Positions 3,315-58,126 of a stretch of DNA of 64,000 nt are shown piece by piece (the stretch's first letter is position 1; the number at the start of each line of letters is the position of its first letter). Under the pieces are notes generated by a model. It saw nothing but the letters and a program-made list of their open reading frames with translations, ran no database searches and was not told the origin of the DNA. Made by a program: the position numbers and the translations under genes. Origin of the DNA: a bacterium (lineage in GTDB: Bacteria; Myxococcota; UBA727; JAUIJE01); assembly GCA_030431455.1 (NCBI GenBank), contig JAUIJE010000002.1:567294-631293 (forward strand). The letters run 5' to 3'.

Positions 3315-3629
3315 ATGCGGCGAACCGGTTTCGTACTTTTTTCTACATTCACCTTCATGATCTGGCTGGGCGCCTGCGAGGCGCAGAAGCCCCAGCTCCC
3401 CGAGGCCCTGCCCAGCGCCTCGGACATCACCCTCACGACCGAACCCGCGGGCGCGACCATCGTGGTGGACGGCATCCCCATCGGGACCGGGCCCCAGACG
3501 GTGAAGCTCAACCCCGGCCCCCACCGGCTCAAGGCCCTGCTCAACGCCTATTTTCCCGCCGAGCAGCGCATCACGGTCAACGGCCGCGAAAAGCAGACCA
3601 TCACCCTCACGCTGGTGGCCAGCCACTAG
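3315..3629 (+). CDS. PEGA-domain lipoprotein
   Basis: 104 aa. Signal peptide with lipobox WLGAC; then a PEGA domain: SDITLTTEPAGATIVVDG, GTGPQTVKLNPGPHRLKA and a final beta strand EKQTITLTLVAS. PEGA domains are small beta folds on surface and envelope proteins. I chose ATG 3315 because it gives a compact signal peptide; TTG at 3291 would add eight residues. It is divergent from the TPR lipoprotein gene, 149 bases apart. A 97-bp repeat element begins three bases after its TAG stop. Confidence 0.82.
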   Translation: MRRTGFVLFSTFTFMIWLGACEAQKPQLPEALPSASDITLTTEPAGATIVVDGIPIGTGPQTVKLNPGPHRLKALLNAYFPAEQRITVNGREKQTITLTLVASH

Positions 3630-3632
3630 GAC

Positions 3633-3729
3633 ACGTCTCAAAATCGCCTGCGGCGCTTTCGAGCCGGCCTTCTTCGCAGCGCGAGGCTTCGATGGGAGTC
3701 TGCTCGTTCGGCGTACGTGCCGCCTCACC
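3633..3729 (+). repeat. dispersed 97-bp element, copy A
   Basis: Matches the reverse complement of 57178-57274 at about 78 of 97 positions by hand alignment, without gaps. The first 44 bases (40 identical) and last 24 bases (23 identical) are well conserved; the central 29 bases are not (15 identical) but keep their length. It starts 3 bases after the TAG stop of the PEGA lipoprotein gene. The remaining 158 bases up to the next gene hold nothing I can name. Confidence 0.8.
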
Positions 3730-3887
3730 CACGTCGGAAACCTGTGTCGTTTTGTTTGGGGGATCGGCCTCGACGCTCGTGGCGCCCTCGCTCCGACTCC
3801 CCCGCTTATTCGCCTCCGCCGCGTCGGGCGGCGTTGCATCCTGGGGATGCAACCAGCAGCGGTTTTTGTGACCCGGCCCCCCTGGAT

Positions 3888-4607
3888 TCAGAGCGGGAGC
3901 GGCTCGAGGTAGGCGCGGGTGGCGGTCCAGATGCCTTCGGGCACGTAGTGGGACAGCTCGGGGACGGGGTGCCGGGCCTCGGGGTGCTCCTCGACGATGC
4001 CGAGATTCTCCAGGTGGCGGGCGCGCTCGACGATGATGTCGCGGCCTTTGTAGGTGTCGATCTCGACGTGGATGCAGTGGCGCTCGCGCACGACGCGCAG
4101 CAGTGACGCGGCCTCCAGCCCGAGCTCCTGCTCGAGGATGGCTTGGGCTTTGTCGCGCAGCTTCCACGTCGAGGTGCGCCGGCCGACGAACCCGACGTCC
4201 ACCGCGAGCCCGGCCAGGTGCTTGGACCGTTGGGTGGCCCAGCGCCGGGTGCGCCGCTCGCGCATCAGGCGGAACTGGTCCTCCGGCGATCGCGACAGCG
4301 ATGTGATGTACACGCCCTCGGCCCAGGGCCGCAGCTGGTCGGACAGGATGTCCGCGGCGCGGATGATCAGGGGGTGGGTCTCGACCCGGTCGTAGGTCAC
4401 GGCGCGCGCGGTCGGCGTCAACTGGTGCCGCTTGGCGATGCGCGCGAGGGGGTCGGGGGTCGCGCCCACCGGGGTCATGTCCGCGAGCGCGGGCGGGTAG
4501 AGCGGAATCGCGGGATCTTGGTCGTCTTCATACGGTCCCATGACGAAGGCGCCGGTGAACGCCCCCACCACAAAACACAAAAGCCAGACGAACCGCTCGG
4601 TCACCAT
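3888..4607 (-). CDS. M15-like / DUF5715-type zinc peptidase, membrane-anchored
   Basis: 239 aa. An N-terminal hydrophobic segment (FVWLLCFVVGAFTGAFVMG) should anchor or export it. The catalytic-type core has YITSLSRSPEDQ, then SKHLAGLAVDVGF (His130, Asp137) and RHCIHVEID (His180, Glu182). This His/Asp/His order is that of M15/LAS zinc peptidases such as D-Ala-D-Ala carboxypeptidases, so it probably cleaves peptidoglycan peptides in the periplasm. Start is ATG 4607 (GTG 4604 is also possible) behind AGGTGGA. It is divergent from the SDR gene over a 174-base gap. Confidence 0.72.
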   Translation of the reverse strand: MVTERFVWLLCFVVGAFTGAFVMGPYEDDQDPAIPLYPPALADMTPVGATPDPLARIAKRHQLTPTARAVTYDRVETHPLIIRAADILSDQLRPWAEGVYITSLSRSPEDQFRLMRERRTRRWATQRSKHLAGLAVDVGFVGRRTSTWKLRDKAQAILEQELGLEAASLLRVVRERHCIHVEIDTYKGRDIIVERARHLENLGIVEEHPEARHPVPELSHYVPEGIWTATRAYLEPLPL

Positions 4608-55950: not shown

Positions 55951-57042
55951 GTGCTGCGGGTGATGGTGTTGGGGGCGTACGGATCGGCGGGCCGGGCGGT
56001 GGTGTCATCGCTGGCTGCGCTCGACGAGGTCGACCTGGTCGCGGGCGGGCGGCGGGCGTCCCCGCTCGAAGGCTTGGCCGCGCAGGTCGACAAGCTCCAC
56101 ACCGTGGTGGTCGATGCCCACGATCGGCAGTCGTTGCACCGGGCGCTCACCGACGTCGACGTCGTGATCAACTGCATCGGCCCGTACATCGGCAACGGTC
56201 TCCACATCATCGAGGCCGCGGTGGACGCGCACACCCACTACGTCGACCTGGCCTCTGAACAGGAGCACCTTCGCCGCGCGCTGCGCTTCGGTGACGCCGC
56301 CCGCGCGGCCGGGGTCACGGTGTTGGTCGGCGCGGGGGCTTATCCCGGCCTGTCCGGTCTGTTGCTGCAGACCTTGCTCGCGGCGATGCCCGACGCAACC
56401 CGCGCGGAACTGGCGCTGATCACCGCACACCCGCGTGAAGGCGAAGCCGGTCCAGCGCAGGTGGAGTCCGGCCTCCTGGAGCTCGGGTACCCCCACCAAG
56501 CCCTCGTGGGAGGCCGCCTGGAGGCCCGGTTTCCTGGTTCTCGTCGAGCGTTCGACTTTGGCGGGGGCTTTCAGCGTCGCACGCTGATGGAGTGGCCCCA
56601 GCTGGAGGTCATCTGGGCCGGCCTGCACACCGATCTCACCGAGATGTCGACGTGGGTTTGTCTCGATGGCCAGCCGCCGACCCCCCGGTGGTTGCTGCGC
56701 GCGGTGTCGTGGCTGGGCCTGCACCGCCCCACCCGGCGCTCGGCATGGTTGCGGCAGCTGGTGTTGCGAACACGTCTGCGGCCCGAGACCGAGCAGGAAC
56801 GGGCGGTGGTCGGGCAAGGGGCGCTGTTCGCGTCGGTGGCGGGACCGGGGGGCGAAAGGACGCTGATCGCCACCATCGACGACGTGGCGTGGGCCACCGC
56901 CTGGTTGCCGACCCAGCTCGTGCGGACGTGGTCGCGGGGCGCGCTCCCCGCCGGGGTCAGGACCCCCATGGACGTGCTGTCCGCCTCCGAACAGCTCCAC
57001 GCCTTTCGCGCCGCACCGGGCGTGAGGGTGGCGGAACGCTGA
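55951..57042 (+). CDS. saccharopine dehydrogenase-like NAD(P)-binding protein
   Basis: 363 aa from GTG 55951. N-terminal Rossmann fold VMVLGAYGSAGRAVVSSLAA and DVVINCIGPYIGNG, then HYVDLASEQEHLRRA, and VGAGAYPGLSGLLLQTLLAA. This set fits Sacchrp_dh_NADP proteins (trans-acting enoyl reductase type). The C-terminal part with TRRSAWLRQLVLRTRLRPET is family-like. Product and substrate unknown. The 214-base gap before it holds no gene I can support. Confidence 0.78.
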   Translation: MLRVMVLGAYGSAGRAVVSSLAALDEVDLVAGGRRASPLEGLAAQVDKLHTVVVDAHDRQSLHRALTDVDVVINCIGPYIGNGLHIIEAAVDAHTHYVDLASEQEHLRRALRFGDAARAAGVTVLVGAGAYPGLSGLLLQTLLAAMPDATRAELALITAHPREGEAGPAQVESGLLELGYPHQALVGGRLEARFPGSRRAFDFGGGFQRRTLMEWPQLEVIWAGLHTDLTEMSTWVCLDGQPPTPRWLLRAVSWLGLHRPTRRSAWLRQLVLRTRLRPETEQERAVVGQGALFASVAGPGGERTLIATIDDVAWATAWLPTQLVRTWSRGALPAGVRTPMDVLSASEQLHAFRAAPGVRVAER

Positions 57043-57177: not shown

Positions 57178-57274
57178 GGTGAGGCGGCATGTACGCCGAA
57201 CAAACACCCTCCCGTCGGCGTCGTGCCGCACGAAGAAGGCCGGCTCGGAAGCGGCGCAGCCGATTTCGAGACGT
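57178..57274 (-). repeat. dispersed 97-bp element, copy B
   Basis: Inverted copy of 3633-3729 (see that entry for the alignment). On the minus strand it begins 2 bases after the TAG stop of the YD-like lipoprotein gene, matching the placement of copy A. The rest of the 234-base gap (57043-57177) holds nothing I can name. Confidence 0.8.
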
Positions 57275-57276
57275 GG

Positions 57277-58086
57277 CTAAAAGTAGGTGCTGCCGACCTC
57301 GCCGAGCGTGAGCAGGAGCGAGTCGCTGGCCGGGGACGAGTAGGTCTTGCCCGCCCAGTCGATGTAGCCGGCCTTGATGATCACCACCGGCTCGAGGTTG
57401 AGCGGGGCCAGGCCGCCGTCGTCGTACGAGATGTCGTAGTCGTTGTTGCCCACCTCGACCTGCGAGATGCGCCCGCCGTCGTCGTAGCTGAGCTGGTATT
57501 CATTGTTGCCCACGTCGACCTCGTCGAGGGTGCCGTCGTCGTTGTAGCGGAACTCGTAATCGCTGTTGCCGATGTCGACCTCGTCGAGCCGGCCGCTGTC
57601 GTCGTAGCGGTACTTGTGCTCGACCTCGATGTCGCCGAACGCGGTCTCGGTGATGTACGTGACCTCGTCCACCCGGCCCGCGTCGTCGTAGCGGAAGTTG
57701 ATCTCCCCGTCGAAGCTGAGCGAACCGATCTCGGTCTCGGTGTTGATCGAGACCAGGCGCCCACCTTCCCAGGTGTACTCCAGGGTGGTGTCGTCGCCGT
57801 CGTTGTCTTCGCGCACCACCTTCGAGAGGTTGCCCCCTTCGTACTCCACCACGCCCTCGACGCCGTCGTCGTCGAAGCCGACCACCAGGCCGCCTTCCCA
57901 CTCGAGCTCGATGTCGCGGGACCCGATGTCGATCTCATCGATGTAGCCCCCCGCGCCATAGGTGATGTCGATGTCGCCGCCGGCGCCGTCGCCGTCGATC
58001 TCCACCACCCGGGGTGAATAGCGGCCGCCGCAGGCGGGCAGCACCAACAAGGACAGGGCGGTGGCGGTCAGGACAGGGCGCATCAT
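57277..58086 (-). CDS. lipoprotein with acidic YD-like repeats
   Basis: 269 aa from ATG 58086, after AGGTGAG. Lipobox VLPAC, then repeats of about 20 residues with Tyr-Asp-Asp-x-Gly-Arg: FRYDDAGRVDEVTYI, KYRYDDSGRLDEVDIGN, FRYNDDGTLDEVDVGN, LSYDDGGRISQVEVGN, ISYDDGGLAPLNLE. Spacing and sequence echo RHS YD repeats but the protein is short and has no RHS core. Anchored at the cell surface as a beta structure; ligand unknown. Confidence 0.75.
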   Translation of the reverse strand: MMRPVLTATALSLLVLPACGGRYSPRVVEIDGDGAGGDIDITYGAGGYIDEIDIGSRDIELEWEGGLVVGFDDDGVEGVVEYEGGNLSKVVREDNDGDDTTLEYTWEGGRLVSINTETEIGSLSFDGEINFRYDDAGRVDEVTYITETAFGDIEVEHKYRYDDSGRLDEVDIGNSDYEFRYNDDGTLDEVDVGNNEYQLSYDDGGRISQVEVGNNDYDISYDDGGLAPLNLEPVVIIKAGYIDWAGKTYSSPASDSLLLTLGEVGSTYF

Positions 58087-58126
58087 CGGTCTCACCTCAT
58101 GGTCTCGGTGTGAACAAATTCATGAA

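Follow-up and report, generated by a model that had tools for sequence, protein, structure and literature searches.

Repeats behind TAG stop codons in a Myxococcota genome as probable left ends of IS5-family MITEs

The closest described systems are insertion sequences (ISs) of the IS5 family. IS5 of E. coli duplicates YTAR, with CTAG used most often (15/24) (PMC5493358), and the IS427-group elements of Paracoccus mostly produce 2-bp duplications and contain two overlapping ORFs (PMC3281130). The elements described here share with the IS427 group two overlapping transposase ORFs with DUF4096 and DDE_Tnp_1 domains, a length of about 0.85–1 kb, short terminal inverted repeats and a 2-bp duplication (PMC3281130). 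Unlike that group, they possess a 206-bp leader carrying a 97-bp module, and their insertions are found almost only at stop codons. With IS5 of E. coli they have in common a YTAR-type target with a preference for CTAG; however, a 4-bp duplication is reported for IS5 (PMC5493358), whereas the evidence presented below favours a duplication of TA only. The shorter copies resemble bacterial MITEs in being short and non-coding, in bearing the terminal inverted repeats of a resident IS, and in their dispersed, multicopy, nested and mosaic forms, but they are distinguished by the tie to TAG stops and by G...C termini which, placed around TA, appear to rebuild a stop on both sides. A limited literature search returned no report of a stop-codon-bound IS5 MITE.

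The stretch of DNA analysed (the window) comprises 64,000 nucleotides (C16:567294-631293) of a 7.7-Mb genome consisting of 28 contigs. From its letters, a 97-bp element had been predicted directly behind two lipoprotein genes. Both placements were confirmed. Copy A (3633–3729, plus strand) starts 3 bases past a TAG stop at 3627–3629, and copy B (57274–57178, minus strand) starts 2 bases past a TAG stop that reads CTA on the plus strand (57277–57279), so that each lies in the sense orientation of its upstream gene. The likeness of the two copies exceeds chance (83% identity over 97 bp, BLAST E = 2.7e-21). In addition, when the left end was searched for as a 43-base pattern (at most 3 mismatches), exactly A and B were matched in the window and nothing in 100 shuffles. 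Based on the results below, we suggest, with a probability of about 0.9, that A and B represent left ends of MITEs or of their relics, mobilised by the YTAG-targeting transposase of an IS427-like insertion sequence of the IS5 family, of which two copies persist.

The presumed source of this transposase is an insertion sequence of about 1 kb, whose two copies (L013 and L015) have 1,002 bp in common and are 96% identical. The sequence starts CTAG|AGCACGTCTCAAAATCGCC and ends GGCGATTTTGAGATGCGTT|CTAG, and CTAG flanks both ends of each copy. The terminal inverted repeats are GAGCACGTCTCAAAATCGCC on the left and the inverted GAACGCATCTCAAAATCGCC on the right; the 97-bp module stands at the start, as the first part of the 206-bp leader, and the inverted terminal repeat of the module stands at the end. 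Both copies retain an open pair of overlapping ORFs matching NF033580 (IS5 family), DUF4096 and DDE_Tnp_1. The DUF4096 and DDE_Tnp_1 matches exceed their cut-offs, and NF033580 scores 133.7 bits on ORF B (cut-off 110); ORF A alone reaches 106.4 bits, just under the cut-off, because the gene is split. The 97 bp are thus the left end of an IS5-family IS and its MITEs and no independent unit.

The same terminal repeat, GARCRCRTCTCAAAATC, is common to the IS and to its non-autonomous derivatives (MITEs) of up to about 285 bp. At up to 3 mismatches, the 19-base terminal repeat occurred 65 times genome-wide, against 0 and 1 occurrences in the reversed-pattern control. Four derivatives of about 255–285 bp (L004, L006, L007 and L009) are short and non-coding, contain both terminal inverted repeats and are devoid of transposase genes, as is typical of MITEs; with 19 module copies and 65 terminal repeats, the family is also multicopy and dispersed.

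The original prediction had described a 97-bp element, and this length has to be revised: the element starts at the G of the TAG stop, and copy A extends to about 3866. The target of copy A is CTAG at 3626–3629, in which TA (3627–3628) is the likely target duplication; G3629 would be the first base of the element and, together with TA, would rebuild the TAG stop. The left terminal inverted repeat GGACACGTCTCAAAATCGCCT, also carried by the IS5-family elements of this genome, spans 3629–3649 (plus strand), and an imperfect 27-bp palindrome occupies 3637–3663. The module at 3633–3729, which is the left-end module of the IS/MITE family, is continued on the plus strand by the body of the ~285-bp MITE (3730–3811; 74% identity over 232 aligned columns from 3625), of which copy A does not contain the double-hairpin insert of about 45 bp. 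While the left 185 bp (3625–3811) correspond to the 285-bp MITE, the next 55 bp (3812–3866, minus strand) come from a second family of MITEs, whose terminal repeat is GAGNGCATCCCAAAACC: they represent its right arm in inverted orientation (86% over 56 bp), and the final bases of the right end have decayed. This makes copy A a mosaic MITE, degraded at its right tip. L005 is mosaic in a similar manner, and parts of the second family have also recombined into L014. The second family itself, with inner hairpins GGTTGCATCCGCAGGATGCAACC, is represented by L256, L257, L259, L261, L262 and L263.

The gene upstream of copy A (3357–3629, plus strand; ORF open from 3291) encodes a small lipoprotein with a PEGA domain. 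This domain extends nearly as far as the C-terminus, and the gene accordingly seems not to be truncated. Past copy A lies a convergent gene at 3888–4607 (minus strand).

Copy B (57178–57274, minus strand) is a left-end relic of greater age and shows no detectable body or right end. It stands at TTAG (57277–57280, minus strand), where the element presumably starts at G57277 and TA (57279–57278) was duplicated. The upstream gene is a predicted lipoprotein on the minus strand, running, according to the gene calls, from 57277 to about 58086–58095; its matches to RHS/DUF4595-like families are weak and under the curated cut-offs. The convergent gene on the other side (55951–57042, plus strand) encodes a saccharopine-dehydrogenase-like NADP-binding domain. 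Copy B forms an older clade with L008, L011, L012 and L017, and in this clade neither a right end nor a body was found. Since no right end occurs within 420 bp of copy B, it is called a left-end relic and not a complete MITE; for all five old copies it is the left end that identifies them as transposon sequence. A search beside the old solo copies for transposase or body remnants gave none.

Genome-wide, the 97-bp query recovered 17 strong copies and a sequence profile 19. The expectation of further copies with a fixed relation to stop codons was borne out by this census: nearly all un-nested copies with an intact left end begin within a few bases of an in-frame upstream stop in the sense orientation, and this stop is TAG throughout. 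After correction for orientation, most copies align at a common start, TAG[A/G].CACGTCTCAAAATCG. Four copies (L002, L005, L009 and L016) are nested in another repeat, which itself mostly starts at a stop. What did not hold is the tie to lipoprotein genes. The upstream genes are unrelated and of many kinds, including the PEGA lipoprotein, an ABC-transporter-like gene and an IS630-like transposase gene (the last two labelled from translated C-termini, not by a family search), and the presence of a lipoprotein gene upstream of both A and B is a coincidence. It should be noted that genes were called with a home-made gene finder based on codon usage, and that the IS630-like gene upstream of L003, an open frame of 380 codons ending in TAG, was missed by it. 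Insertion sequences of the IS630 family also favour CTAG, and an IS630 origin was considered for the repeats because of this neighbour; it was dropped, as the linked transposase is of the IS5 family. A module copy listed as L065 (G000:C1, upstream of 30233) stands on the TAG stop of an IS630-family-transposase-like gene, one mobile element following another.

The searches made did not show the module itself outside its own genome. A profile search of the order gave 18–24 bits, no stronger than weak matches in the own genome, and a DNA pattern had no match across a wider contig collection in which the records of the own genome are possibly absent. Weak matches of 30–50 bp in two relatives (G006 and G037), seen in a first search, were judged to be chance. 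Relatives from other families of the phylum resemble the present elements in the type of their terminal repeat and in their TA flanks but lack the module, and a more distant search found a 66% relative in a Sorangiineae MAG, the ends of which could not be defined.

The association with stops was then compared with the supply of target words. In an 800-kb sample of the genome (40 spread-out blocks of 20 kb), CTAG occurred 102 times, whereas base composition predicts 2,074 occurrences and a second-order Markov model 497, i.e., a depletion of about 20-fold and about 5-fold, respectively. TTAG and CTAA are depleted too, both in the window (1–64000) and in the 800 kb. Of 100 CTAG sites away from the elements, 37 fall exactly on stops, 52 are intergenic and 11 are coding. 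Among 67 terminal repeats, 29 (from 28 elements) coincide exactly with the stop of a gene and 12 lie nested within a further copy, while the classification placed none inside a gene; right ends, as well as copies whose left ends are shifted or decayed, are among the remaining 26. For the 29 ends on stops, the context is CTAG in 23 cases and TTAG in 6, never GTAG or ATAG, whereas 142 host TAG stops comprise 70 GTAG, 43 CTAG, 20 ATAG and 9 TTAG. By our arithmetic, the chance of finding no G or A before TAG in 29 cases is about 2e-13. GTAG is thus the commonest context of host TAG stops and is absent from the elements, which means that the elements follow YTAG and not stop codons as such. The tie to stops can accordingly be traced to the choice of YTAG and the near absence of CTAG elsewhere, and not to an attraction to 3' ends as such or to lipoprotein genes. 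However, about 37% of free CTAG sites lie on stops, compared with an occupancy of nearly 100% by the elements, so selection or a further target preference is also needed.

The extent of the duplication can be estimated from another MITE family, 82 bp long, which comprises at least 45 copies with the same terminal repeat, an otherwise different sequence and the same habit of standing at stops. Its copies with TTAG on the left have CTAG, not TTAG, on the right. This suggests that the duplication covers TA only, not 4 bp, and that G and C form the boundaries of the element; a short target duplication, as expected of an IS, would then be present. Five 82-bp copies use both ends on stops and lie exactly between two convergent genes. 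The family also forms head-to-tail arrays with an exact 82-bp period (G000:C22:146203-146451 and G000:C11:131521-131852; L284, L149–L157), which probably arose as successive copies inserted into the (C)TAG at the end of one already in place.

We propose the following pathway. The IS5-family transposase would move the IS and its MITEs into YTAG, mostly CTAG, with duplication of the central TA. Because the element would start with G and end with C, the junctions TA+G on the left and C+TA on the right could provide genes on both flanks with a TAG stop, the left end serving a forward gene and the right end a reverse one. CTAG being avoided genome-wide, the sites left for insertion would be mostly stops and the few bases between genes; selection would presumably eliminate insertions within genes. 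Through this avoidance and this loss together, the surviving copies would come to stand immediately after TAG stops, in many cases with a convergent gene on the other side.

It was also predicted that the repeat is a mobile or functional 3'-UTR element. Its mobile nature is supported by the IS5-family ends, the MITEs and the TA duplication; a function at the 3' end found no such support, as a hairpin followed by a T run, the mark of an intrinsic terminator, is lacking at both A and B, a promoter signature is also lacking there, and Rfam gave no match within the window. Nevertheless, the left module may have arrived on a MITE and then been kept (exapted) as a 3'-UTR or 3'-end element, e.g., a terminator or an RNA-stabilising hairpin. 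We consider this unlikely, although several observations leave room for a secondary function as hints. Among un-nested module-bearing copies, the left end alone is at a stop in 12 and the right end alone in 0, compared with 9 and 7 in the 82-bp family (Fisher p about 0.01). Old relics keep the left module and not the body or right end, private changes are absent from the last 24 bases within the five old copies (5.7 expected, p = 0.02), and one pair of the left palindrome is exchanged (C-G to G-C) when young and old copies are compared. These numbers are small, though, and transposase binding may in itself account for the better conservation of the left end. Moreover, the sense strands of A and B do not fold better than shuffled sequences (z = 0.9 and 0.0), and the palindrome pairs better on the minus (antisense) strand (97% of cells) than on the sense strand (89%). 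The antisense strand of B, with z = -2.6, is the sole case of folding lower than most shuffles.

That better antisense pairing, the palindrome near the left end and the place right behind stops would also fit integron attC-like sites or IS200/IS605-type (REP/PATE) elements, which likewise occur right after genes or next to a short target word. Both are highly improbable here in view of the inverted terminal repeats, the duplicated TA and the linked DDE transposase; as regards attC, the ends of the 97 bp are not mutually complementary, and the copies are dispersed behind unrelated genes instead of lying in cassette arrays. A distinctly unlikely history is that the module was once a separate mobile or repeated element associated with stops and was only later captured as the left end of an IS5-family element. 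It would explain why the nearest IS relatives have leaders of roughly 75–105 bp without the module, against 206 bp here, and why the old solo copies form a clade of their own without a right end. On the other hand, the copies open with the IS5 terminal repeat (their first ~15–20 bases), a repeat that relatives without the module have as well, the solo copies stand at YTAG like all others, and the shuffling of modules between MITE families observed here can itself account for changes of leader.

Under the preferred reading, that of left ends of IS5-family MITEs and their relics, the elements neatly exemplify a type of mobile DNA that is already known. They illustrate that a 3' repeat which looks gene-specific can arise from the choice of target site and survival, and they call for caution before repeats next to genes are interpreted as regulatory. 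Where 90% of the genome is coding and CTAG is depleted about 20-fold, a transposase of the IS5 type has few harmless sites besides stops, and the insertions provide a simple test case of whether such events alter gene ends. It is conceivable, albeit a long shot, that the family is specialised for stops, with target word, TA duplication and G...C termini rebuilding TAG and the left module retained as a working 3'-end element; if so, it would be a portable 3'-UTR kept by selection after the rest of the element decays.

Two further forms were observed at TAG stops. An element of about 65 bp (L265 / L196, G000:C24:54188) consists almost only of two inverted terminal repeats, and L260 (G000:C3:49188) is a chimera in which the left part of an 82-bp MITE is joined to the distal portion of the module/IS leader.
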